Source: Candidatus Omnitrophota bacterium
GTDB lineage: Bacteria; Omnitrophota; Gorgyraeia; Tantalellales; Tantalellaceae
Direction of reading: 5' to 3'
DNA: 10,481 nucleotides
Assembly (NCBI GenBank): GCA_018814505.1
Contig: JAHIZQ010000029.1
Location: 1 to 10,481 of the forward strand
The position numbers and the translations under genes were made by a program. Positions 1-10,473 of this stretch are shown here, one piece after another. Positions within the stretch are counted from its first letter, which is position 1, and each line of letters starts with the position of its first letter. The notes beneath the pieces were generated by a model. It had not been told where the DNA came from, did no database searches, and saw only the letters and a program-made list of their open reading frames with translations.

Positions 1-75
1 AGTAAAAGCGTTCTAATTAAGTTAACCGCGACAGTTCTTGTTCTAGTTTTTTCCTTTCAGACTACTCTTGGTGCG
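1..75 (+). other. Signal peptide (N-terminus cut by window edge)
   Basis: Codons 1-25 give a short basic stretch (Lys2, Lys7), then a hydrophobic core rich in Leu and Val (about residues 8-19), then a polar TTLGA segment. The arrangement n-region, h-region, small residue at -1 matches a Sec signal peptide, with a plausible signal peptidase I cut after Ala25 (LGA|NG). I see no lipobox Cys and no twin Arg. The initiator codon must be a few bases upstream of base 1. This implies that the whole giant protein crosses the inner membrane, which is striking for domains derived from cytoplasmic glycolytic enzymes. The feature is seen in the sequence; the cleavage site is inferred. Confidence 0.8.
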
Positions 76-3000
76 AACGGGGTAGTGCCTCTGGAAAATA
101 TTTCCGCCGAAGTGGGCAAGACGCTTCAGGTGCAATCGTCATATAAGCCCATTGGTGGCGTTGATCTTGTATATCGGCATCTTATCTCAGCTAATTTAAA
201 AGTTTTTCTCAAAACGACAAACGTAGATGTCGCGGAAATAAAATATAGAGTCAATCAGATTCTTGAGAATAGGAAAGAAAAAGAAACTGTTACAGATGAA
301 AAAAGTGGCAGGCGGATTCTTTATGATCATTCCAGTTCATTAAAACGCAAAGAAGGAGAAAATTGGATATTGCCGTGTTTTGTCGTTGGTGAAAATGATG
401 AAATTATTGGGGGACCATACGAAGCGGTTATTAAACCTAATGGTGATGTTGATACACGAATTTCCTCAGATGAACAGGATCAAAAAAAGCCGTCTAAAGC
501 TTTTGGTCATGTTGGTGGGGACGCGCCAAAGTATGAAGTTAAGCCGGATGATATAGAGCTTAAAGCAGGTGTTTTTTCTGCAGGAGAAAGTCCAGAACAA
601 AGCGCTTTTAGTTTTAGAGAACGTCCGGATTTAACGGGACTTTTTAATGAAACTTTTGGAGCTTTGAAGCTTTTAGTCGAAGAAAATAAACGATTGCTAT
701 CACATTTTAACGAAATATTGAAAAGAGAAGAGAACAAATCTCTTGACATTATTTTTAACGATGATTTAGCTAATATCAATTCATTCCGGAGAGGAAAGTC
801 TATTGTTTTTAATGGTAATTTTGTGCGTAGCCTTTTGGCAATGTATTCCGCGGAAGAAAAATATAAATGGTGGGCAAAATATATTCTTATGCACAGAATG
901 TTACATGAATTAGGACATACGCTAACACAGAAGTCTTTTTGGAAAGAAGTTAAAGAAGAGCAAAGTCTTGTTAAGATAGACCTTGTCTTGTATGATCAAT
1001 TAGAACGAATAGGAATACAAAAGGACGTTATCAACGCGGTTTTTGAAGATAGTTTTCTAAAAAGAGAAATAAGGTTTTCGTCAGGATATTATTTCAAGTT
1101 TCTGAAAGTTCTTTCACTTTTAGATAAAGAAACGCAGGATAAAGTTATTGCGTTTTACGCGGCGCATCCCGATATCACAAGAGATAAAATTAATGAGTTG
1201 ATTTTCTATTTAACGTCAGATACGGGAGAGGATGTAACAGACGGTATACACAAGGCGGTAATATGGGAATACATAAATAGAGAAGAAGCGAAAGATATAG
1301 CGAAAAGTCATTTTCAGGTGGCTAGCCCCATGACGTCATCTGTGTTACAGGGTGCGAGGACCGGAGAAGTTTCTGTTCAGGACATAAATGATGCGGGAGC
1401 AGATTACGTTGTCATTGACAAATGTGGTGCCGGAGAATCAGATCAAACTATGCGTGAAAGAATAAGAATGGTTTTCGAAAAAACCGATAAAAAGGTAGTT
1501 ATGCGGTTGGATGTTACGGGTAGGTCACTTGACCCGTTTGCGAATTGGATGGGTTCTCTTAAAGAACAATTACGTTGGATTAAACTCGAGCATATGAGCA
1601 GGCTTGTCATGTCTCTGGGAACAGATCCGAGTAAAGGGGAAAGCCTTACTGTAATGATTCAAAAAACAGATTTAGTTGCGGCGAAAATTCGTGAAGAACT
1701 TTTAAAGATTGTTGTTGAAAACAATGAATTGGGAAAAGAAGAAGCTTCTGAAAAGATAAATCAGGTGCGTATTATCTATGAAGTTGACGGGCATACAGCT
1801 GGGGTTCTTGCCGACAATACGATTTATCCGGAGGAATGTTTACCAGAAAATTTGAACGGAGTTTTTCTTATGACGGGAGTTTTTAATAACGTCGATGTTG
1901 TTAAAAAGATGCTTGTGAGAATATATCGTTTATGGCAGAAACAACCTAAGAAAACCGTATTTTGTAATCCATTGGTTATGTGCGATTGCCGGGAGGTATA
2001 TGATTTTGAACAAATTCATAAGAAGTTGTATCAACTTTCGCTTGGAATTAAAGATGATAAGGCAAAAAATTTAACTAGAAATTTTATGGAATATGTTGAT
2101 TTCGCGGCAATAGTGCCGTTTCTTCATTTAAGAAAAACTGCGTGGGAGACAGGTAAATTTGTTTATACGCCCAGTACTAAGACTTGGGAAGGCGCTTCTG
2201 TGAAACTTGCTGTTCAGAATCTTGAATCTTTGGATGAAGCCTATTTTGGAGAACTAATTCGCAAAAAAGTGACGCATGTAATACTGGGGCATTCTGAAAG
2301 GCGTAAATATCATGCGGAAAACAGTGAAAGTCTAGTTGAAAAAATAAAAGCCGTAGTTAAACATGGTATGGTTCCAATATTTTGTATCGGAGAGAAAGAA
2401 AACGAAATAAATAAATGGAAACAAGTTTTGGGTAAACAGCTTAACGACGTACTTTCTCATTTAACTCCGGACGAAATAGCGAGTCTCATAATCGCGCATG
2501 AACCGGTATACGCGATAGAGGGAAGCACTCCGGCAACGCCAAGACAGATTCAAACTACAGCGGAATTTATCCGCAATAAAGTTTTGAAAAAATTTGTGTC
2601 AGACGCAAATGTAAGAAATTCCATTCGTATAATTTACGACGGAAGCGTGAAGGGTTCTAACGTATACGAGATTATGGGGAACGAAGGAAGAATAAAACCG
2701 GCAATGCTCAAAGCGCTTAAGGGTATGTGGGATGTTATTGGAGCTTTGGTTGGAGGTAGGAGTTTAACGGAAGACTTTCCGAAAATTTTTCAGCGTGCCG
2801 CGGATGTATGTAAGCGACTTGGAAAACCCGCGCCTGTTATCGTAGCTAACTGGAAGATGGGTAAAACCAGTATGCAGGACGCGGAAGAGTCAATAAAAAC
2901 TTTTTGTGAAAAAGTAAAAAAGATTAGGCATGATGTAGAAGTAATAGTCGCGTGTAACCCTACGCAACTTACAGACGTGAGCAAAATGCTTTTTAGCGAG

Positions 3001-6000
3001 AATCAACCGGTTTCGCCCAACGCGCCGCAACTTATTGCGCGTGAAAAGTTTTTGAACAAAGAAGTCGCTGATTTTACAAGATGGATGTGGGAAAACGGGT
3101 TTGCTACAACGCCTGAATTTATTGATAAAGCTATTAAAGAGTTGCATAGACGTTACTCTGATTCTACTACAGAGCGAGAGTTTGAAAAGCACGGAATTTC
3201 ATGGTATGCGTTTTTACAACAAGCAGTTCTTTCATCTGTTTTTGTTGGAAAAGACATGATAAAGGCCGCCGAAGAGTTTTATGGTGAGAAAATTGGTTAT
3301 GCTAGGAGTGGTGCTCTATGTACAGAGATCGCTGAAAAATATAAACTTAACGCGTATGAAAGAGTTATTTTAACGTGGATCGAGCCCACTGTCAGCGTTG
3401 GAGCGTTTCATGAAGAGGTATTGAAAGAAAATAAAGGCACTCAGGAAAACAAAATATTGAATTTATGGAGATTTGCGGATATGGTGCAAAGACTGCCCTC
3501 TAACATGGGAAGAATGGTATATGACAAGACAGATGCAGAGACATCTTTAAAAGAATTCGCTGAAAAATTAGACGTTGGGGATGAGCTTATTGGGGATAAT
3601 CTTAAATTGATTTTAAAATATCTGGGTTGGGATAAAGCAATAGAAGTCAAGGTTTCGTCTGATGGAGAATGGTCTGTTCCAAACGGCATCAAGAATTTAT
3701 CTAAAAGCCAGGCAATTAAAGATAAAATGCTTGTGGATTTGTACCTTTTAATAAGAAACATAGATCGGTTCCAAGACAAAAAACGAGGTGATTTAGGTGT
3801 AAAGGGGAGATTTAAGTTTTTATTATACGGCCTAGCAGAATCAATTAAGTTTACTAATTTTACTAAATATGACGATATTGATAATGTGTTCGATAGCAGG
3901 ATAACGGGTTATTATTTCAAAGCTTCTAACTATTATCAAGATCGAGCGTCTAAAATGAAAAATGAAGATTATATGATCGATAGGGCCATTTCTTTAGCGC
4001 AAGTTCAATATGAAAACATGTTTAGAGGGAGTGTTTTGAGTAAAGAAAGAGCTGAGCTAAAAAATGTGATTGATACGTTAAAAGACGTTAAGGCTCAAGG
4101 CGGAATTAGCGCGTATGTAAAGTATAAAGTCAGGGACATTATTGCCGCGAAAAAAGCTGAAAAAGAGAAAAAGTATAATGCTGAGACAAGAAATAATCCA
4201 TTGTCCCACATAAGCGGAGTACCGTCTAATCCTTATAACGCGGATCCGGTAAAAGAAGTAGTGAATCAGATTCGCACTAATTTATATTTGCCGAATTTTT
4301 CAATGGATGCGGAGAATACAATTTATGCCCGGTTAGCGGCGCAACTTATAAGAAGATGGGTAAACGATTCTGCAAATATTAACATAATAAACGCTCGTAT
4401 TTATGGTATCAAAGAAAAGGATATCGGGTTATTCGTAAGGTTTTTGCAAAATAATAGTTACACAGGTAACGCTGATTTTACTGTTAATTACGAGGGGAGT
4501 AATTCTTTTACGATTCAAAGAGATGGAAGAGATATTGCTCTAGTAGATGTTTGTGAAAATTTTGATGGACACAAGGGAAAAGATTTGTCAAACCAATTGG
4601 TAGTGGTTTGTGACCGCACAAAATGCAAGGACAATGAATTAATGCTTAGTCTTGAGGGGTATACGGGAGGTATTCTTGTAGTTGATCCTGTAAATGACCC
4701 CAAAGGTAAGATAGTTGTAACGGGTATTAATGAGAATACCTGGATAAAAAAAAATGAACAAGTTTGTTATTACGCGTCAGCGTTTACAGACGCGGTTTCA
4801 CATCTTTTCAAGGCAATAGGAGAAAAGTATGGACTTAAGAATTCTTCTGTTTCATATTGCCGGCCCAGCATGGCTGGAGAATTAATCCCTTCTAATACGA
4901 ATGTTGGTGAAGGTCTTATTAGGTTATTGCCCAATTTGGGATTTTCCAAAAAGGGTCTAGAGGACAAAAAAGATTTTTCAGGTCAGATGTATGATGTACA
5001 AGTTAATCGTGGCGGTGCGGTAGCTCAGCTAAACCTGGATCTTGGCAAAGGAGTTACTAAGAAAGAGATACAAGGATTTTTAAGAAATCTTGCTTTTGAT
5101 CCTAGAATGAAAAACCGTGTTGTGATTTCGGAAGACATTAATTCTTTTCATTCAGTGAATGTTATGGGGAAAGAACCAGTACTTTTTATTGACGCGGGAA
5201 GCATAAGCATTAAAGACTATAGCACATTTCTTAGCTTAAGAGCTTGGATTCCTGAAGAATGGTCTTTGGCGCGCAGTATTACGGATTTAATTAAAAAAAT
5301 TGGAGTTAACAAAGAGCTTTCGCAGACAAAAAAGTGGAAAACTAAAGAAGAGCATAGAGAAGCTGTTAAAAATTCAGGAAATGGTCTTTCTTATGAACTA
5401 AAAACGGGGTTTTTAGACAAAATAGAAGGTAGCGGAGAAATAGAAACAAGTATTGAAACAATTATTAGGGATGGTGTAACAGTTCCCATTGTCCGATTAA
5501 AAGCGCGTAAAAGTTCAGGAATAAGATTGTTTCAGGATATGTTTAAAGCTATGTATGGTAATGTCCATTATGTGAGAGATACGGGGGCAAGAACACACGT
5601 GTTTAAGGCAGATACCTATCTCTTTAGCTCTCCTTATTATTCAGGACAGTATGTGAACGCGGGCAGAATAGATGCTGTTAGGGCAAGTGCAATAGTTGAA
5701 TTTGTACAGACCGAAAAAATGTTTCGCCGGGGATACCCTGTAATACCGCCTATAGGCGTTATTGTTATGGAAACGCCTGATGGGGGGGAAGAGTACTTTG
5801 TAATGGAAAAATACGTAGAGACTTTTACAAGGAGAATTAAACAATTAAAAAATGAATTTAACCCGTCAAAAGGTGAGGTATTGAGCCATGGGGTGAAACA
5901 GATTGTAGGTAAGATGCTTTTAAAATTATCAAGAGATCTAGGTGAATTTTGCAGGTTTTTACGCGCGACTGCTCCTACATTTTTTCAGATGGAAACTAAA

Positions 6001-9000
6001 GTAGTATCAAATGGCAAAGTTTACATGGATGATGTTCCACGGTTTCATATTAATCCGGAAATGGATACAGATAAAGAAAATCTTCGAAGAATAGAATCTT
6101 TTATATCTTCGAAGTTTGAAGAGCTTATGAAAAATATGCCCGAGAAACTTCTTATAAAAGCAAAGGAAGAGTTTAACAAGGGGCTTCGGACAGAAAAAGT
6201 TGTTATTCAAGGCGGAGAGAGCCCTGTTTCGCAGGCGCTTTATGCACAGCTTATAGGCAACATGGCAATAGATCCGCGTGCCATAATGATGGTGCGGTAT
6301 GATAAAATTCTTCATTATCAAAATGAAGAGTTTATACGTCTCCTTAGAGATTCACTTCCCGGTGCCGTAATAGAAGGGGGTGACACTTGGATCAGTATAA
6401 ACGGAAAACGTATTCAGGTTTTAAATAGCTCTGAGAATAAGCCTATAAATTCTGGAAAGTACGGGGCTGACACCGTGATTTATGACGTGGCTTGGAGCGC
6501 GAAAACTCAGGAGGAGGCGCTAAAGTATCTTCAAAACGGAGCTAAACGTGTAATTTTTGTCGGTGCGTCTAATGACGAAAAAATAAAAACATTTATTTCA
6601 GGTGTTACGGAAACGCTCGGAGCAAAAGACCACATTATAGCAACTGGTACCGCGCAAGATAATGCTGTGGCAACTGTTACGTCTATGCTTAAGAAAAAAT
6701 TTGATATAGAAGGTCAATCGGTTTTTATAAGCCGAAGTGTGTCTCCCGACCACACTGTGCATGACGGTTCAGGGTCAGGGACATATAAAAAATCAAGAGC
6801 TCCAATAGGTAACATTTCAGCGGTTCCCGAAGAATATGGTCAAGGTTTAAGTGATGAAGTAAAATCACTTTTGGGGTCTTCCTTAGGAGTTGAAGCTGAA
6901 ACAGGTACTTTAAAGGGTAATATAGCTTTCATTACACTGAAACTAAAAGAAAAAGCCGCTGGGCTGAATCCTGCTATTATAGAAGGACTTTTTGAACAAG
7001 CCGCGCGTGAGGGGAAACTAGAAATTAACCCGTTTCCAGTGCCTCTGGGGACTAATGATGTTGTCGGGAAAGATAAATTGGTTTTTGATCCTAATAGCGT
7101 GCAAATAAATGGCAATCTTCTTACTCTTGCGGTTGGGTATGATAGTGAACTGTTTCTTGCCGCGCAACTCAGGCGTTTAATTGAAACAGCGGATACTTGT
7201 GAAAAACCTAGCGAAGATTTTATTAATAACGTACAGGAAGAAATAACCCAAGCAAAGACAGAAAGCGAACAGAAGAAAAAAGAAAAAGAAAACGACAAAA
7301 AAACTGAAAAGCCAATCCAAAAGGATAAAAAAAGTGCATATGTTCCGCTTCCTTCTCCTGAAAAAACCGCGGTTAAACCGTGTCCTGAAGGAATGGAGTA
7401 TCCTGCAAAGGTGGTTTTGGATTTAGACGGGTTTACATTTGATAAAGGCAAAAGGTCTTCTATAAATCAGATGGCAACAGAGCTAATTTGGAAATGGATA
7501 GGTAATACAGCTGTGAGTCTTAGGGCTATTAATTTAGGTCATGTTGAGGTGCGGGAAAATGGTAAAGACGTAACTTTAAGGGAATTAGCGCGCTACCTTC
7601 AGAAAGAATTAAAGGATGGACCAGTTCGTGCCGAAATAAGTTATAAAAGAGGGTTTAGAAATGATTATGATGATAGTGAGTGGCACAATTTAGGACGTTT
7701 ATACATAAACGATCCGGATCAAAAAAATCCAATTAAGGTTTTTCGTTGTAATGAAATGAAAGACGAAGAAGATGAAAAGTGGTTTGATGAGAATTGTGAT
7801 TATGGTTTGAATCATTGGGTGATGTTGACAAATAAAAAAGATCCTTCTAAGCAATATCGTCCAAAATTTTGGAATTTGCATGTTATAAATCCCCAAGAAG
7901 ATGTGTGGCCGCCAAAAATGAATGTTTTTGCACCTTGTTGTTCTGAGAATGTATCGTATCATCCTTCTGTTACAACTTTGGGCGCAAGTAGAGCTATAAG
8001 CGCGATGTATGGCTATGATGCGGGGCTAAGGAATATTCAAGTTATTGCAGTTAGTCCGGAAAGATCCTCGGAAGTAAAAATTAAGGATAGTTTTATAACG
8101 AAAACAAACGAAGGCTTTACAAAAAATGATGGAAGTTTTGTTCCGTATAGAGTTCTTAACCTGGAAAGCCCAGTAAGGAAACAGGGTAATTTAATTAAAA
8201 TGACGTTTGAATTGTCTAAAAAAGCGTCCGTGGAAGAGATTAATAACTGTTTTAGGGAATCGGCGAATAAGCTAGGTCAAATGAAATACCTGGAAAAAGG
8301 TATGGGATGGACATCCATTGATATGAAAAATTGTGACGCGGCATGCGCTTTTGAAAGTGAACTTACGCAAGTAGATGGTAACCTGGCAACTGTCTACGTC
8401 TGGGCGAGTGAAAGTACTTTGGCGGGAATTGTTACTGATACCATCATTTTTGATGCATATGACATTCAGCGAGAGGATGAGTCTGGTGTGCGTATTCTCG
8501 AACTGTCTAAAACGAAAGAAGGTGGGACAAGGGGTAAGACCTTGAATTCAGCTCTTCAAAAAAACATGGGAAAGGGTCTTATATTTCTTAAACAGCCGAC
8601 AACCGCGCCGAACTCACTTCAGCTGGAAGAAAAAGAAATTATCCCTGAACTTGAAGGTAAACCTGCTACGGTTGTAGTTGCGGGTTCGTTTGGAAGAACA
8701 GGCAAGGGGTTTTTACGCACCATTCCGGGCGACAAAAACATAGACCTAAAAGCTGTTGTTTTGACATCTGTTAAGAACGTAAAGAAATACATTATCGGGC
8801 TTCGAAATGACACTGCTTATGGGCAGTTAGGGTATGAAGTTGAGTACGGTGGTATTGACCCTGAAAAAGGATGGCACTATATTTGGATGGGAAGTGATGC
8901 GATCGGCTGGAAAAAAGTATACGCGTTTGCTGAAAAAGATCTAGGAAAAGTGAAATTTAAAGAGTTAGGTGCTGAAGTTTATTTACATGCCACTGGTCGC

Positions 9001-10473
9001 GGTCTTCACAGGCTTAAAGAAAGAGCCGCTTTGGAAGCCGGGGTAACCACCATTTTTGCCTCAGCTCCTTATAAAGGTGAAGCAGTAACAAGTGTGTGGG
9101 GAGTAAACAGTCAAAATGAATTGGAAGAACTTGAAGATGATGTAATTTCACCCGCGTCTTGCACAACAGGCGCTGTATCGGGTGCTTGCAAAACGGTTTT
9201 AAGTTATTTGGAAATGTCTTTTGATCTCTTAAAAGGCATTACTTATCATGAAGCGACAAATGACCAAAGTGAGACAAGAACTGTGCATAGAACAGCGCTT
9301 AGAGGTGAACCGGCAACTGATACGGCTATTAGTACAACTTCTGGGGCAGGCACTGCCACAGGTCTTGCCGTTCCGCCGGTTATGGGTAAAGCCGATATAG
9401 CCGCAATTAGAACTGGGTTTGGTGGCGCGTCACTTGTTGAAGTTTTTATACGTCTTAACCCTGATCACAATAGGTTTAAAGCGACGGGTTTTCCAACAGC
9501 AGAAGACATAAATAATGTGTTAAAAAATGCCGCGCAAGGTGAACTTGCGGGAATCCTTGGATTTCATAAAGGCGATTGGAAATTAACTTCAGAAGAAGTA
9601 AAAGGCATGCTGGAATCAGGTGCTATTGATCCGCATCTTACGAGAGTCGAAGGAAATATTCTTAGGTTTGGTTCATGGTATGATAACGAAGTTGCTTTTT
9701 CCAGGCGTTTAGCGGACCAGATTCCACGTATCGCGGCAAAAAGAAGGAACATTGACGTGAGCAAAAAAACGAAGTCTAAACCAGATGCGTCTAACCTTGC
9801 GAAAATGGAGAAAAAAGAAAAACCGAAAAAGACGAAAGTTCCAGGTTTTCTGGATAGAAATCTTGAAGATACCAAACAGCTCGCACTTAGCCTTAAAGAA
9901 ACCATTATATCAATTTGTTCATCATATTCTTTTAATAACCAACTTGTATTGATTTTTGATGACACGATCGGACAGAATCACGAGGTAAATGTCCTGGATA
10001 TTGTTGATGCACTTGAAGACCTTAAGAAGGATGCCAAAGTTGGACCCATTTTGAAAAACCTTGTTACAATAAAAGCTGCACCGGACAGCATTTTTTCTGA
10101 AGCTGTGCAATATATTGGTGCTCGCCAGACGGAAGTCTTTCTTTTTGCTAACGGTGATTCGCGTCCGGTTTTAAAATCTATGGAAACGGATGTGCATTCA
10201 GTTTATATTGAGGAAGATGATTTTAATCCGAGAGCGTATCATCCGTTAACGGATATTATAACGATTAGTTTAGCTGAACATTTGGCAAAAAGCCTTAACG
10301 GCAGTATTCTTAATAAAGTTCGGGAAATAATGAAAGATCTGAACATAGCACAAATAGAGTTGGGGCCAGATGGTATTTTAATTTTCTATCTGTTACCGGA
10401 TGCTAAGCCGTACAACAAAGGTGAACTTTTGCGGGAGATAGGAGTAATAAAAAGAACGCTTAAATCTGTATAA
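1..10473 (+). CDS. Giant exported multidomain protein with tandem TIM and GAPDH-like domains (5' partial)
   Basis: One uninterrupted frame encodes at least 3,490 residues and ends in TAA at 10471-10473. The frame is open at base 1 and has no ATG, GTG or TTG before the GTG at 85. Bases 1-84 encode a signal-peptide-like segment, so the real start is upstream and the GTG at 85 is not the start. Recognisable parts in order are: signal peptide, beta-rich region, HExxH region, two TIM barrels, helical region, GAPDH-like A, possible kinase-like region, GAPDH-like B, Lys linker, GAPDH-like C, GAPDH D, Lys linker and a C-terminal alpha/beta domain. A normal TIM is about 250 residues and a normal GAPDH about 335, so this is a mosaic over ten times longer. 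Most units have lost catalytic residues, while the last copy of each family keeps them. I infer a secreted or periplasmic scaffold with possible enzyme activity in barrel 2 and unit D. The frame is certain; the role is not known. Confidence 0.95.
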   Translation, partial: SKSVLIKLTATVLVLVFSFQTTLGANGVVPLENISAEVGKTLQVQSSYKPIGGVDLVYRHLISANLKVFLKTTNVDVAEIKYRVNQILENRKEKETVTDEKSGRRILYDHSSSLKRKEGENWILPCFVVGENDEIIGGPYEAVIKPNGDVDTRISSDEQDQKKPSKAFGHVGGDAPKYEVKPDDIELKAGVFSAGESPEQSAFSFRERPDLTGLFNETFGALKLLVEENKRLLSHFNEILKREENKSLDIIFNDDLANINSFRRGKSIVFNGNFVRSLLAMYSAEEKYKWWAKYILMHRMLHELGHTLTQKSFWKEVKEEQSLVKIDLVLYDQLERIGIQKDVINAVFEDSFLKREIRFSSGYYFKFLKVLSLLDKETQDKVIAFYAAHPDITRDKINELIFYLTSDTGEDVTDGIHKAVIWEYINREEAKDIAKSHFQVASPMTSSVLQGARTGEVSVQDINDAGADYVVIDKCGAGESDQTMRERIRMVFEKTDKKVVMRLDVTGRSLDPFANWMGSLKEQLRWIKLEHMSRLVMSLGTDPSKGESLTVMIQKTDLVAAKIREELLKIVVENNELGKEEASEKINQVRIIYEVDGHTAGVLADNTIYPEECLPENLNGVFLMTGVFNNVDVVKKMLVRIYRLWQKQPKKTVFCNPLVMCDCREVYDFEQIHKKLYQLSLGIKDDKAKNLTRNFMEYVDFAAIVPFLHLRKTAWETGKFVYTPSTKTWEGASVKLAVQNLESLDEAYFGELIRKKVTHVILGHSERRKYHAENSESLVEKIKAVVKHGMVPIFCIGEKENEINKWKQVLGKQLNDVLSHLTPDEIASLIIAHEPVYAIEGSTPATPRQIQTTAEFIRNKVLKKFVSDANVRNSIRIIYDGSVKGSNVYEIMGNEGRIKPAMLKALKGMWDVIGALVGGRSLTEDFPKIFQRAADVCKRLGKPAPVIVANWKMGKTSMQDAEESIKTFCEKVKKIRHDVEVIVACNPTQLTDVSKMLFSENQPVSPNAPQLIAREKFLNKEVADFTRWMWENGFATTPEFIDKAIKELHRRYSDSTTEREFEKHGISWYAFLQQAVLSSVFVGKDMIKAAEEFYGEKIGYARSGALCTEIAEKYKLNAYERVILTWIEPTVSVGAFHEEVLKENKGTQENKILNLWRFADMVQRLPSNMGRMVYDKTDAETSLKEFAEKLDVGDELIGDNLKLILKYLGWDKAIEVKVSSDGEWSVPNGIKNLSKSQAIKDKMLVDLYLLIRNIDRFQDKKRGDLGVKGRFKFLLYGLAESIKFTNFTKYDDIDNVFDSRITGYYFKASNYYQDRASKMKNEDYMIDRAISLAQVQYENMFRGSVLSKERAELKNVIDTLKDVKAQGGISAYVKYKVRDIIAAKKAEKEKKYNAETRNNPLSHISGVPSNPYNADPVKEVVNQIRTNLYLPNFSMDAENTIYARLAAQLIRRWVNDSANINIINARIYGIKEKDIGLFVRFLQNNSYTGNADFTVNYEGSNSFTIQRDGRDIALVDVCENFDGHKGKDLSNQLVVVCDRTKCKDNELMLSLEGYTGGILVVDPVNDPKGKIVVTGINENTWIKKNEQVCYYASAFTDAVSHLFKAIGEKYGLKNSSVSYCRPSMAGELIPSNTNVGEGLIRLLPNLGFSKKGLEDKKDFSGQMYDVQVNRGGAVAQLNLDLGKGVTKKEIQGFLRNLAFDPRMKNRVVISEDINSFHSVNVMGKEPVLFIDAGSISIKDYSTFLSLRAWIPEEWSLARSITDLIKKIGVNKELSQTKKWKTKEEHREAVKNSGNGLSYELKTGFLDKIEGSGEIETSIETIIRDGVTVPIVRLKARKSSGIRLFQDMFKAMYGNVHYVRDTGARTHVFKADTYLFSSPYYSGQYVNAGRIDAVRASAIVEFVQTEKMFRRGYPVIPPIGVIVMETPDGGEEYFVMEKYVETFTRRIKQLKNEFNPSKGEVLSHGVKQIVGKMLLKLSRDLGEFCRFLRATAPTFFQMETKVVSNGKVYMDDVPRFHINPEMDTDKENLRRIESFISSKFEELMKNMPEKLLIKAKEEFNKGLRTEKVVIQGGESPVSQALYAQLIGNMAIDPRAIMMVRYDKILHYQNEEFIRLLRDSLPGAVIEGGDTWISINGKRIQVLNSSENKPINSGKYGADTVIYDVAWSAKTQEEALKYLQNGAKRVIFVGASNDEKIKTFISGVTETLGAKDHIIATGTAQDNAVATVTSMLKKKFDIEGQSVFISRSVSPDHTVHDGSGSGTYKKSRAPIGNISAVPEEYGQGLSDEVKSLLGSSLGVEAETGTLKGNIAFITLKLKEKAAGLNPAIIEGLFEQAAREGKLEINPFPVPLGTNDVVGKDKLVFDPNSVQINGNLLTLAVGYDSELFLAAQLRRLIETADTCEKPSEDFINNVQEEITQAKTESEQKKKEKENDKKTEKPIQKDKKSAYVPLPSPEKTAVKPCPEGMEYPAKVVLDLDGFTFDKGKRSSINQMATELIWKWIGNTAVSLRAINLGHVEVRENGKDVTLRELARYLQKELKDGPVRAEISYKRGFRNDYDDSEWHNLGRLYINDPDQKNPIKVFRCNEMKDEEDEKWFDENCDYGLNHWVMLTNKKDPSKQYRPKFWNLHVINPQEDVWPPKMNVFAPCCSENVSYHPSVTTLGASRAISAMYGYDAGLRNIQVIAVSPERSSEVKIKDSFITKTNEGFTKNDGSFVPYRVLNLESPVRKQGNLIKMTFELSKKASVEEINNCFRESANKLGQMKYLEKGMGWTSIDMKNCDAACAFESELTQVDGNLATVYVWASESTLAGIVTDTIIFDAYDIQREDESGVRILELSKTKEGGTRGKTLNSALQKNMGKGLIFLKQPTTAPNSLQLEEKEIIPELEGKPATVVVAGSFGRTGKGFLRTIPGDKNIDLKAVVLTSVKNVKKYIIGLRNDTAYGQLGYEVEYGGIDPEKGWHYIWMGSDAIGWKKVYAFAEKDLGKVKFKELGAEVYLHATGRGLHRLKERAALEAGVTTIFASAPYKGEAVTSVWGVNSQNELEELEDDVISPASCTTGAVSGACKTVLSYLEMSFDLLKGITYHEATNDQSETRTVHRTALRGEPATDTAISTTSGAGTATGLAVPPVMGKADIAAIRTGFGGASLVEVFIRLNPDHNRFKATGFPTAEDINNVLKNAAQGELAGILGFHKGDWKLTSEEVKGMLESGAIDPHLTRVEGNILRFGSWYDNEVAFSRRLADQIPRIAAKRRNIDVSKKTKSKPDASNLAKMEKKEKPKKTKVPGFLDRNLEDTKQLALSLKETIISICSSYSFNNQLVLIFDDTIGQNHEVNVLDIVDALEDLKKDAKVGPILKNLVTIKAAPDSIFSEAVQYIGARQTEVFLFANGDSRPVLKSMETDVHSVYIEEDDFNPRAYHPLTDIITISLAEHLAKSLNGSILNKVREIMKDLNIAQIELGPDGILIFYLLPDAKPYNKGELLREIGVIKRTLKSV
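82..612 (+). other. N-terminal beta-rich region, unknown family
   Basis: Residues 28-204 follow the signal peptide. They contain alternating hydrophobic stretches that look like beta strands (around 50-75 and 121-145, the latter with two Gly pairs), separated by charged loops. A polar, low-complexity stretch follows at about 155-200 (DEQDQKKPSK and similar), which is probably a linker. I do not recognise the family. The position, straight after the export signal and before the HExxH region, would suit a small beta-sandwich or propeptide-like domain, but that is a guess. Confidence 0.4.
613..1317 (+). other. Helical region with HExxH zinc-metalloprotease-type motif
   Basis: Residues 205-439. 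The key sequence is MLHELGHTL, with His302, Glu303 and His306 (codons 904-918), the HExxH signature in which two His bind zinc and Glu activates water. It sits at the end of a helix rich in aromatic residues and follows a strand-like stretch at 266-272, the order expected in zincin folds. A third zinc ligand could be Glu319 or Glu320 in KEEQSLVKID, 17-18 residues after the first His, similar in placement to ImmA/DUF955-like proteases, but this is inferred. The rest (about 325-439) is helical with no other motif I recognise. Because HExxH can occur by chance and the following domains are largely degenerate, activity is uncertain. Confidence 0.5.
1318..2136 (+). other. TIM-barrel unit 1: degenerate, permuted triosephosphate isomerase
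   Basis: Residues 440-712 align by eye to triosephosphate isomerase starting at strand 3. GARTGEVSVQDINDAGADYV (451-470) matches the conserved TIM segment around GAFTGEVS, the beta4 strand follows (YVVID), and TIM-like stretches continue for beta5 (KKVVMRLD), beta6, beta7 (VRIIYEVDG) and beta8 (NGVFLMTGVFNNVDVVKKML). After beta8 comes KKTVFCNPLVM (650-660), a ruined version of the beta1 NWKM segment, and then a beta2-like AAIVPFLHL (702-710). The unit is therefore arranged beta3-beta8 then beta1-beta2. All three catalytic positions are lost: the HSERR His is replaced by about Lys474, the EPVWAIGTG segment by LGTDPSKGE with no Glu at the site, and the NWKM Lys is absent. It is probably a pseudoenzyme with a structural or binding role. 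Confidence 0.72.
2182..3000 (+). other. TIM-barrel unit 2: permuted triosephosphate isomerase with catalytic residues
   Basis: Residues 728-1000. Triosephosphate isomerase interconverts dihydroxyacetone phosphate and glyceraldehyde 3-phosphate. Motifs in order are KLAVQN (beta3), VILGHSERR (beta4, catalytic His764), VPIFCIGE (beta5), AHEPVYAIEG (beta6, catalytic Glu834), IRIIYDGSVKGSNVYEIM (beta7), IGALVGGRSL (beta8, phosphate-binding Gly918-Gly919), then VIVANWKMGKT (beta1, Lys952 with Asn950) and VEVIVACNPTQL (beta2). The beta1-beta2 segment that starts a normal TIM comes last, joined to the beta8/alpha8 end by a very short linker (GKPAP). The catalytic Lys, His and Glu are all present. Oddities: the loop-6 lid reads PVYAIEGSTPATP instead of the usual PVWAIGTGKTATP, and the loop-7 YGGS is YDGS, so phosphate binding may be altered. 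TIM homology is very sure; the permuted reading is inferred. Confidence 0.9.
3052..4215 (+). other. Long helix-rich region of unknown function
   Basis: Residues 1018-1405, about 390 residues between the second TIM barrel and the first GAPDH-like unit. The composition suggests mostly alpha helix: amphipathic stretches with many Leu, Ile, Phe, Tyr, Lys and Glu and few Gly or Pro. Aromatic residues are common at 1296-1340. A charged helix at about 1378-1395 (AAKKAEKEKKYNAE) probably ends the region as a linker. I searched it by eye for phosphoglycerate kinase motifs, which might be expected between TIM and GAPDH, and for a P-loop, and saw neither. No family is recognised. Confidence 0.4.
4282..5304 (+). 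other. GAPDH-like unit A (degenerate)
   Basis: Residues 1428-1768 follow the GAPDH layout from end to end, with low identity. A helix and strand like the Rossmann start (LAAQLIRRWV, then NIINARI) lack the GFGRIGR glycine loop. Later matches are LVVVCD (GADIVIES position), GGILVVDPVNDPKGKIVVTG (the AKKVIISAP and VMGVN strands), YASAFTDAV (the catalytic NASCTTNCL segment), AVAQLNLDLGKGVTKKEIQG (1674-1693, the SVVDLTVELEKDVTVEEIN segment), PVLFIDAGS (SSIFDA) and AWIPEEWSLARSITDLI (the SWYDNEWGYSNRLVDLI end). The catalytic Cys is Ala1594 (codon 4780-4782), and the usual VHAYT His position reads VSYCR. The nucleotide-binding loop is lost as well, so oxidoreductase activity is not expected. It is probably a structural or binding pseudoenzyme. 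Confidence 0.75.
5353..6186 (+). other. Region resembling a degenerate kinase-like fold (tentative)
   Basis: Residues 1785-2062 lie between GAPDH-like units A and B. The layout loosely recalls protein or small-molecule kinases. VFKADTYLF is a possible beta3 strand; a helix with Glu (AIVEFVQTEKMFRRGYPV) is followed by a strand pair and hinge (IGVIVMETPDGGEEYFVMEK). A later helix (LSRDLGEFCRFL) precedes TAPTFF where a catalytic loop would be, and GKVYMDDVPRF stands where beta8 and DFG would be. There is no glycine-rich loop and no HRD motif, so if the fold is right it is a pseudokinase. The similarity is structural in pattern only and I would not assign a function. The last 40 residues are a charged helix leading into unit B. 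Confidence 0.28.
6190..7191 (+). other. GAPDH-like unit B (degenerate)
   Basis: Residues 2064-2397, the clearest of the three degenerate GAPDH copies. KVVIQGGESPVSQALYAQL replaces the Rossmann GFGRIGR start. GDTWISINGKRIQVL (2128-2141) matches GDTLVVNGKKIKVL, YGADTVIYDV matches LGVDIVVEST, and QEEALKYLQNGAKRVIFVGA matches the REKAEKHLKAGAKKVIISAP segment. HIIATGTAQDNAVATVTSML aligns with HIISNASCTTNCLAPVAKVL, placing Ala2218 (codon 6652-6654) at the catalytic Cys. ISRSVSPDH aligns with TVHAYTND, placing Arg2245 at the catalytic His. APIGNISAVPEEYG and VEAETGTLKGNIAFITLKLK cover the catalytic domain core, and VGYDSELFLAAQLRRLIE matches the SWYDNEWGYSNRLVDLI end. Length is close to a normal GAPDH. 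It has lost both catalytic residues and its glycine loop is altered, so it is probably a pseudoenzyme. Confidence 0.85.
7210..7374 (+). other. Lys/Glu-rich low-complexity linker 1
   Basis: Residues 2404-2458 are dominated by Lys, Glu, Gln and Asp (for example KKKEKENDKKTEK) and end in a Pro-containing stretch (PLPSPEK). It separates GAPDH-like unit B from unit C. It is probably a disordered or single-helix spacer. A run of this charge could also bind acidic surfaces, but nothing in the sequence says so. Confidence 0.7.
7396..8460 (+). other. GAPDH-like unit C (most diverged)
   Basis: Residues 2466-2820. The GAPDH layout remains. A start strand and helix (KVVLDLDGF, then MATELIWKWI) precede AVSLRAINL, which matches the IEVVAINDL strand. 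SYHPSVTTLGASRAISAMYG (2652-2671) aligns with the SNASCTTNCLAPVAKVL segment with Val2657 (codon 7969-7971) in place of the catalytic Cys. VIAVSPERS aligns with the segment that should hold the catalytic His and has Ile2682 there. GNLIKMTFELSKKASVEEIN (2729-2748) matches the SVVDLTVELEKDVTVEEIN segment, and NLATVYVWASESTLAGIVTDTI matches the C-terminal SWYDNE region with the motif lost. A charged insertion at about 2545-2640 with clustered acidic residues, Trp and a Cys pair (CC at 2646-2647) makes it longer than a normal GAPDH. It is very unlikely to be active. Confidence 0.68.
8461..8655 (+). other. Linker between GAPDH-like units C and D
   Basis: Residues 2821-2885 are polar, with a Gly/Lys/Thr-rich patch (KEGGTRGKT) and an acidic end (LEEKEIIPELEGK). 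I see no motif beyond a spacer leading into the Rossmann strand of unit D. Confidence 0.4.
8659..9735 (+). other. GAPDH unit D with catalytic residues retained
   Basis: Residues 2887-3245. GAPDH oxidises and phosphorylates glyceraldehyde 3-phosphate to 1,3-bisphosphoglycerate with NAD(P). Visible motifs are: ATVVVAGSFGRTGKGFL (Rossmann glycine loop, one residue longer than GFGRIGR), GAEVYLHATG (GADIVIESTG position), ALEAGVTTIFASAPYKGE (AGAKKVIISAPAKGE), ISPASCTTGAV with catalytic Cys3054 (codon 9160-9162), TYHEATNDQ with His3083 (codon 9247-9249), RGEPATDTAISTTSGAGTAT (3101-3120, phosphate site region), an altered VEVFIRL strand, AGILGF, and FGSWYDNEVAFSRRLAD with Asn3229, which normally contacts the nicotinamide. 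The acidic residue that usually ends the second Rossmann strand (in AIND) is replaced in KAVVLTSVKN, so cofactor preference may differ or binding may be weak. It is the only copy of four with a plausible active site. Confidence 0.92.
9736..9846 (+). other. Lys-rich low-complexity linker 2
   Basis: Residues 3246-3282 are strongly basic (KRRNIDVSKKTKSK, then KKEKPKKTKVPG) and join GAPDH unit D to the C-terminal domain. It resembles linker 1 in composition but has more net positive charge. It is probably flexible. Confidence 0.7.
9847..10470 (+). other. C-terminal alpha/beta domain, unknown family
   Basis: Residues 3283-3490. Alternating helices and hydrophobic strands are visible: a helix (LEDTKQLALSLKETIISI), the strand QLVLIFDD, a helix (VLDIVDALEDLKKD), the strand LVTIKA, a helix (IFSEAVQYIG), the strand TEVFLFAN, the strand SVYIEEDDFNP, a helix (PLTDIITISLAEHL), and a closing strand pair (IAQIELGPDGILIFYLLP). 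This is a Rossmann-like or receiver-like alpha/beta pattern, but no nucleotide loop or phospho-acceptor context stands out. The acidic EEDDFNPRAYHPL patch is the most distinctive motif. I recall similar C-terminal segments in giant Omnitrophota proteins but cannot verify this here. It could act in dimerisation, surface retention or regulation; this is not known. Confidence 0.45.

Follow-up and report, generated by a model that had tools for sequence, protein, structure and literature searches.

A giant Omnitrophota open frame with diverged TIM and GAPDH units between two recurrent terminal domains

The giant open frame and its homologues

We analysed the 10,481-nucleotide contig JAHIZQ010000029.1 (C132) of a Candidatus Omnitrophota bacterium whose genome of 1.58 Mb lies in 316 contigs. 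This entire contig, in the following the window, is occupied by one giant open frame on the plus strand (1..10473), which encodes 3,490 amino acids (aa) plus a stop codon at 10471-10473. The protein starts with a signal-like segment and an N-terminal bookend domain, continues with a long middle of diverged, normally cytosolic domains, among them triosephosphate isomerase (TIM) and glyceraldehyde-3-phosphate dehydrogenase (GAPDH) units, and closes with a C-terminal bookend domain at its very end. Genomes, contigs, proteins and fetched relative loci or frames are numbered with the prefixes G, C, P and L, respectively. The 5' end of the frame is cut at the contig edge and about three start codons are missing, as the homologue P0002 opens with MRVSKS three residues earlier. 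The other listed frames of at least 100 aa, apart from a later in-frame start, are on the minus strand and reach at most 203 aa. A preliminary description of this DNA had proposed a single frame of about 3,490 codons, and the frame is indeed open over the full contig.

Apart from the window's own protein, a whole-length protein search found P0002 (3,439 aa), which comes from an independent Candidatus Omnitrophota metagenome-assembled genome (MAG). The two proteins are colinear from end to end with 62% identity in the alignment (60% of the window residues), so the same domain order, which the preliminary description had suggested looking for in relatives, is present in P0002 over the whole architecture. 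A third copy is the partial Omnitrophota protein P0003 (598 aa), whose fourth GAPDH unit (GAPDH-D) is 91% identical to that of the window and whose C-terminal region was recognised by eye. With the whole-protein alignment as query against the genomes' contigs we found no relative.

One might suspect an assembly artefact or a decayed pseudogene, given a MAG contig that is filled entirely by one frame. However, the colinear full-length homologue comes from another assembly and is joined by the third fragment, which shows that the giant frame is real. In addition, 3,490 codons pass without a stop, and the codon-position bias persists throughout, with GC content highest at the first codon position (GC1) in every unit. 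The suspicion, raised by the preliminary description as a possible refutation, is thus refuted in substance and we give it practically no weight.

The identity to P0002 varies strongly along the protein. Among the glycolytic units the best conserved are the second TIM unit (TIM-B, 81%), the strands 1-2 segment behind it (82%) and GAPDH-D (76%), which are also the least decayed ones. The first TIM unit (TIM-A) is 61% identical, the segment aa 646-712 45%, GAPDH-A 61.5%, GAPDH-B 67% and GAPDH-C 53%. Linkers and parts without assignment are only 29-51% identical.

TIM units

To the slices of the window protein and P0002 we applied HHalign against profiles of canonical Omnitrophota enzymes (59 TIM and 28 GAPDH sequences). 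Five other slices and the TIM-versus-GAPDH cross-comparisons in both directions served as negative controls and gave probabilities of at most 6.2. As we read the units, strands 3-8 (aa 430-645) precede putative strands 1-2 (aa 646-712) in TIM-A (1288..2136, plus strand), and strands 3-8 (aa 713-938) precede strands 1-2 (aa 939-1005) in TIM-B (2137..3015, plus strand). The HHalign probability was 93 for TIM-A, 100 for TIM-B and 93 for the trailing strands 1-2. A HMMER search with Pfam models located TIM in three stretches of the window protein, at 160.7 bits compared to a cut-off of 20.1. The two TIM barrels of the preliminary description therefore stand, with TIM-A degenerate, but their strand order looks circularly permuted.

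TIM-B aligns from strand 2/3 through strand 8 and is then followed by a clear strands 1-2 segment containing NWKM. The segment ahead of it (aa 646-712) is without NWK and 45% conserved. If aa 939-1005 are moved before TIM-B, the profile score rises from 142.9 to 160.7 bits (in P0002 from 144.8 to 156.9) and the number of conserved columns kept from 42 to 46 of 68. Two observations weigh against the permutation. The same aa 939-1005 placed before TIM-A raise its score from 18.1 to 42.6 bits, more than the 23.1 bits obtained when TIM-A is given its own following segment in front, and aa 698-712 also align as strand 2 ahead of TIM-B. Since both barrels gain, the scores alone do not tell which of them uses aa 939-1005; it is adjacency and conservation that speak for two permuted barrels in tandem. 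The alternative would be a TIM-B in native order whose start is worn, accompanied by an additional half barrel. An AlphaFold2 (AF2) model of TIM-A with aa 646-712, built from two sequences and of low confidence (mean predicted local distance difference test score, pLDDT, of 52.8), contains eight successive strands. In a fold search with the TIM-region model all 50 matches listed were TIMs, at rmsd values of 10.5-18.2 Å, which lends weak support at the level of the predicted structure. We consider a circular permutation (strands 3-8, then 1-2) likely but not proven, and TIM-B thus offers what looks like a natural permutation of this enzyme.

Canonical TIM has 68 columns with a conservation of 95% or more, of which TIM-B keeps 46 and TIM-A 20 in the permuted reading; the corresponding values for P0002 are 43 and 22. 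With the trailing segment counted as part of TIM-B, its residues N950, K952, H764 and E834 are identical in P0002, and the last three we take to be the catalytic Lys, His and Glu. TIM-A does not keep the catalytic residues. Loop 6 of TIM-B is altered and reads AHEPVYAIEGS in place of AYEPVWAIGTG.

GAPDH units

All four GAPDH-like units named in the preliminary description were recovered on the plus strand with HHalign probabilities between 96% and 99.9%. GAPDH-A (4258..5310; 96% over 278 columns), GAPDH-B (6181..7200; 98% over 301 columns) and GAPDH-C (7381..8448) are degenerate, and GAPDH-C was detected through its C-terminal half alone (96% over only 112 C-terminal columns). GAPDH-D (8656..9750; 99.9% over 325 columns) is the least degenerate unit and matches the PDB chain 1hdg_O with an E-value of 1.4e-37. 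HMMER placed type I GAPDH in five stretches; the score of the whole protein (249.7 bits) is below the equivalog cut-off of TIGR01534 (367.2).

Of the 99 columns with the same degree of conservation in canonical GAPDH (95% or more), GAPDH-D keeps 52, GAPDH-B 27, GAPDH-A 24 and GAPDH-C 21 (P0002: 50, 29, 23 and 20, respectively). C3054 and H3083, presumably the catalytic Cys and His, are found in GAPDH-D only and are identical in P0002, while the position of the Cys is occupied by Ala1594 in GAPDH-A, Ala2218 in GAPDH-B and, as read by eye, Val2657 in GAPDH-C. Four of the six glycolytic units have thus lost their catalytic residues, in agreement with the earlier statement that most copies are inactivated. 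As to the accompanying suggestion of one potentially active copy of each enzyme, the residues are kept in TIM-B and GAPDH-D, but the active-site loops are altered, with SCTTG in GAPDH-D where the canonical sequence is SCTTN. GAPDH-A to -D are not recognisably closer to one another than to canonical GAPDH (HHalign at most 19.9%), which is compatible with an origin with or without tandem duplication. In a quick tree of 91 rows the branch that bears the three GAPDH-D copies is several changes per site long, and their placement gives no origin.

Terminal domains

The sole hydrophobic 19-mer above the threshold in the whole protein is located at the N-terminus. It belongs to a signal peptide-like segment (1..75, plus strand; aa 1-25) that ends in FSFQTTLGA before N, the cleavage site being read by eye. 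The segment fits a cleaved signal peptide and, as a signal-like start ahead of the glycolytic units, supports the earlier description.

The C-terminal bookend domain (9844..10470, plus strand; aa 3282-3490) is an alpha/beta domain of about 205 aa, for which we compiled a 20-sequence alignment. The last 207 aa were matched in 14 of 99 genomes, the window's own included, with 14 of the 25 matches in frames longer than 2,000 aa. We fetched 20 of these places and ran 19 through phmmer, and in all 19 the domain sits at the C-terminal end of its frame or close to it. With the profile, all matches on fetched frames at E<1e-10 end within 11 residues of the frame end. Across 285 genomes of the phylum the profile matched 56 times, in 22 genomes including the window's own and in frames with a median of 1,910 aa and a maximum of 7,588 aa; 43 of the 56 measure at least 1,000 aa. 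The domain is present in the same-family genome G009 and on a Candidatus Omnitrophus magneticus contig. In a collection of species genomes, a DNA signature of the domain (YYPLxEIVxIxL) hit 11 stretches, all of them titled Omnitrophota, Omnitrophica or Omnitrophus. A protein search with the domain, limited to lengths of 0.55-1.75 times the query, returned only the window's protein and P0002. The AF2 model (12 sequences, mean pLDDT 76.8) predicts a layered alpha/beta fold with no clear relative among solved folds. A second, diverged copy is found in the window's own genome (G000 contig C197 5805-6407) in a frame of 552 aa.

The N-terminal bookend domain (118..459, plus strand; aa 40-153) follows the signal segment and shows the motifs LQVQxxFxPI and KRKEGxNWxIPC. 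An iterated hidden Markov model takes in 13 proteins including the window protein and P0002. The domain occurs in 11 of the 14 fetched relatives that bear the C-domain and have a visible start; it was not matched in L119 and L135, and for L133 it sits in a separate upstream frame. A search of 59 genomes yielded 22 matches in 12 genomes (own included), 17 of them in frames that measure 1,000 aa or more. One match lies inside an open frame of 9,919 aa (G025 contig C70 8831-9133).

We fetched eight further places. Among them L152, L153 and L154, which are not part of the N-profile and serve as a held-out check, carry both bookends. In L147-L151, fetched for their N-domain, the C-domain was not matched at E<0.1. 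Two of these frames, L148 and L149, are cut by contig ends; the other three (L147, L150 and L151) look complete, which shows that the two domains are not always paired. By the C-domain signature, and with the N-domain searched within Omnitrophota, the family has so far been found only in this phylum.

Some bookend frames lie next to each other. At L154:2-6853 one frame ends in a C-domain match (E 6e-5), and a few bases after its stop begins the next giant, which carries both domains; judged by their matches these are tandem family members. A similar adjoining pair, an N-domain frame beside a C-domain frame, is seen at L172:107-2374. Downstream of the giant L153 (L170:1162-5942) we noted by eye genes reading like polysaccharide export and chain-length proteins.

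Cargo of the related giants

We scanned 20 relatives with Pfam, 18 with the C-domain and 2 with the N-domain only. In 13 of the 20 at least one family scored above the cut-off, and none did in L116, L119, L130, L132, L134, L147 and L150. Five frames (L118, L122, L126, L127 and L129) are cut on the 5' side, where a signal segment would lie. The cargo is diverse. L117 carries a sugar transferase and a histidine-kinase ATPase, L120 DUF2779, HD and DeoC, L121 glycogen debranching and GH77, and L122 PPDK, PEP-utiliser and HATPase domains. GNAT was found in L123, AAA_5 and VWA in L124, biotin-lipoyl and VTC in L126, biotin-lipoyl in L127 and glycosyltransferase 9 in L131. L153 contains SNase, HEAT and methyltransferase domains and L154 a protein kinase. 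In L118 a frame of 5,709 aa (L118:1-17127) has HTH_3 in six stretches and a phosphotransacetylase and ends in the C-domain. The frame L129:3-5006, also with the C-domain, combines GNAT, nitroreductase and sigma-70 (regions 2-4).

The phosphotransacetylase module of L118 is 30% identical to the enzyme of its own genome and 27-35% to the other matches listed; being no nearer to its own enzyme than to others, it was not captured recently from its own genome. For the debranching-enzyme module of L121 we found nothing further in its own genome, and among 24 relatives a single weak match (29% over 109 residues). The preliminary description had seen glycolytic folds as building blocks of a large exported protein. 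The architecture is in keeping with this, but the building blocks are not specifically glycolytic: as the other middles carry quite different modules between the same bookends, glycolysis is one cargo of a general family of apparently exported mosaics.

Proposed role and alternative explanations

The architecture and the family are well supported; localisation and function we infer. Our preferred explanation, to which we assign a probability of about one half, is that the window protein belongs to a family of Omnitrophota giant mosaics that are bookended and exported and whose middle is mainly a scaffold of globular beads. The giant would be exported by the Sec system, and the bookends would help to export or assemble it or to anchor it at the envelope or surface. 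The middle would be mainly a long chain of stable beads, forming an adhesive or coat-like scaffold of the surface or envelope. Within it one TIM and one GAPDH appear to be under active-site constraint and perhaps still bind or turn over ligands. A more tentative proposal, which we nevertheless take seriously, is that the two bookends are an export platform owned by Omnitrophota. It would take up copies of any cytosolic protein, be it a glycolytic enzyme, a transcription factor or a signalling kinase, and make of them giant polyproteins that are displayed or delivered, which amounts to a capture at the protein level. We know of no described counterpart to such a capture system.

We favour a scaffold built from captured cytosolic folds and exported, with near-neutral accretion and effector delivery as the main rivals. 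Under accretion the secreted bookend frame tolerates any folded insert, and captured genes decay with little function. The heterogeneous cargo across the family, the decay of most glycolytic units and the fast divergence of the linkers and parts without assignment (29-51% identity) would all follow. We nevertheless regard it as unlikely: TIM-B with its trailing strands, GAPDH-D and the C-domain are 76-82% identical compared to 60% overall, the catalytic residues of the two enzyme units are intact, and the whole architecture is kept in P0002. This conservation gradient argues for real constraint on these three parts and against pure decay. An effector polyprotein, whose cytosolic modules would work or serve as decoys once delivered into the cell of a prey or partner, would explain why the cargo includes sigma-70, HTH, phosphotransacetylase, protein kinase and glycolytic modules, which make sense mainly in a cytoplasm. 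One Omnitrophota species is described as a predator in the available parts of two reports (PMC10066038; PMC12583861). We rate this explanation as distinctly improbable, as no toxin or translocation family scored above the cut-off in the 20 scanned members and most window units look inactive. Moreover, the genes flanking six giants (on both sides for four and on one side for two, read by eye with no annotation search) showed no common partner or secretion genes.

An exported enzyme that performs two glycolytic steps outside the cytoplasm by means of TIM-B and GAPDH-D appears very unlikely. Neither NAD nor triose phosphates would be expected outside the cytoplasm. The retention of catalytic residues in one copy of each enzyme would suit such a role, and eukaryotic TPI-GAPDH fusions with mitochondrial targeting exist, according to the accessible part of their description (PMC3527533). 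However, the active-site loops are altered, and the loss of catalytic residues in four of the six units disfavours a plain enzyme. The host genome also has ordinary, separate TIM and GAPDH genes on contig C72.

Relation to known proteins

The PGK-TIM bifunctional enzyme is a two-enzyme cytosolic protein, unlike the window mosaic, and the 'moonlighting' glycolytic enzymes of cell surfaces are ordinary enzymes, typically without signal peptides. The window protein, unlike the latter, contains dedicated diverged copies within a giant with a signal-like start. It resembles PGK-TIM in having TIM within a larger protein (model NF010569) and the surface enzymes, as far as the accessible text describes them, in apparently placing glycolytic enzymes outside the cytoplasm, where the surface enzymes are often adhesins (e.g. 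PMC4009768). The TPI-GAPDH fusions of stramenopiles and other eukaryotes share with it the same consecutive enzymes and an N-terminal targeting signal, but in the available portion of the report they bring two enzymes to mitochondria (PMC3527533), whereas the 3,490-aa mosaic of the window has six units, all diverged.

Closest in phylum and in the very long predicted products are the giant open reading frames (ORFs) of Omnitrophota, reported in the available text to have few annotated domains and an obscure function, with adhesion, coat or predation proposed (Seymour et al. 2023, PMC10066038). Those giants exceed 20 kb; the window frame of 10.5 kb is under this limit, though some bookend relatives, which reach 7,588 and 9,919 aa, are above it. 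The same portion mentions neither a bookend family nor housekeeping-enzyme cargo, both of which are features of the window's family. In the Omnitrophota, TIM, GAPDH and giant-protein literature searched, which for Omnitrophota covered the accessible parts of PMC10066038, PMC12057145, PMC11573180, PMC12583861 and PMC13153191, the architecture is not described; a prior description in other giant-gene work is possible. Within these sources giant Omnitrophota proteins as such are known, and bookend domains framing giants with unrelated cargo are new. Two portable profiles now define one family among these common but obscure giants and make the question of Omnitrophota giant proteins testable. That the middle of a giant can consist of diverged cytosolic enzymes may help to explain the composition of the others.

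Other parts of the protein and further TIM mosaics

The HExxH region of the preliminary description is present as HELGH at aa 302-306, within a module at 799..1161 (plus strand; aa ~267-387), and the motif is kept in P0002. No Pfam family scored above the cut-off for this module. A profile of the surrounding slice (aa 200-430) matches the giants L117 (E 1.5e-6) and L120 (E 0.002), which have HELxH at the matching place. Four proteins in all (the window's, P0002, L117 and L120) thus carry it, and since it is found in L117 and L120 it is a recurring module. Its motif permits the guess of a zinc-peptidase-like domain.

The region at 5311..6180 (plus strand; aa 1771-2060; 40% identical to P0002) had been read as possibly kinase-like. 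We dropped this reading, as neither the best Pfam (E 0.14) nor the best PDB match (E 0.75) supports it and no profile matched, the protein-kinase segment of the relative L154 included. A region at 3016..4245 (plus strand; aa 1006-1415; 51% identical), helical by eye, has no Pfam match above the cut-off. Two linkers on the plus strand were read from the sequence, a charged one at 7201..7380 (aa 2401-2460; 47% identical) and a Lys-rich one at 9751..9843 (aa 3251-3281; 45% identical).

TIM inside a frame of at least 983 aa was found in 8 of 39 genomes, the window's own counted. In the seven other TIM giants (L069-L075), several of which are cut by contig ends, neither bookend was matched. The partners of TIM in these frames are enolase, aldolase, PPDK/PEP-utilising, FBPase, phosphoesterase or HEAT domains, and signal-like segments precede some of the frames. 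At L072:1-9207 a frame of 3,069 aa fills its contig and holds PPDK_N, PEP-utilisers, TIM, class II aldolase and enolase in one chain. At L070:2-10500 three adjoining frames (972, 1,396 and 950 aa, the third cut) have similar starts, and the middle one consists of TIM plus enolase. From its predicted domains this cluster, with its signal-like starts, represents another framework of glycolytic mosaics, distinct from that of the window. More than one framework may thus have given rise to exported mosaics of this kind.
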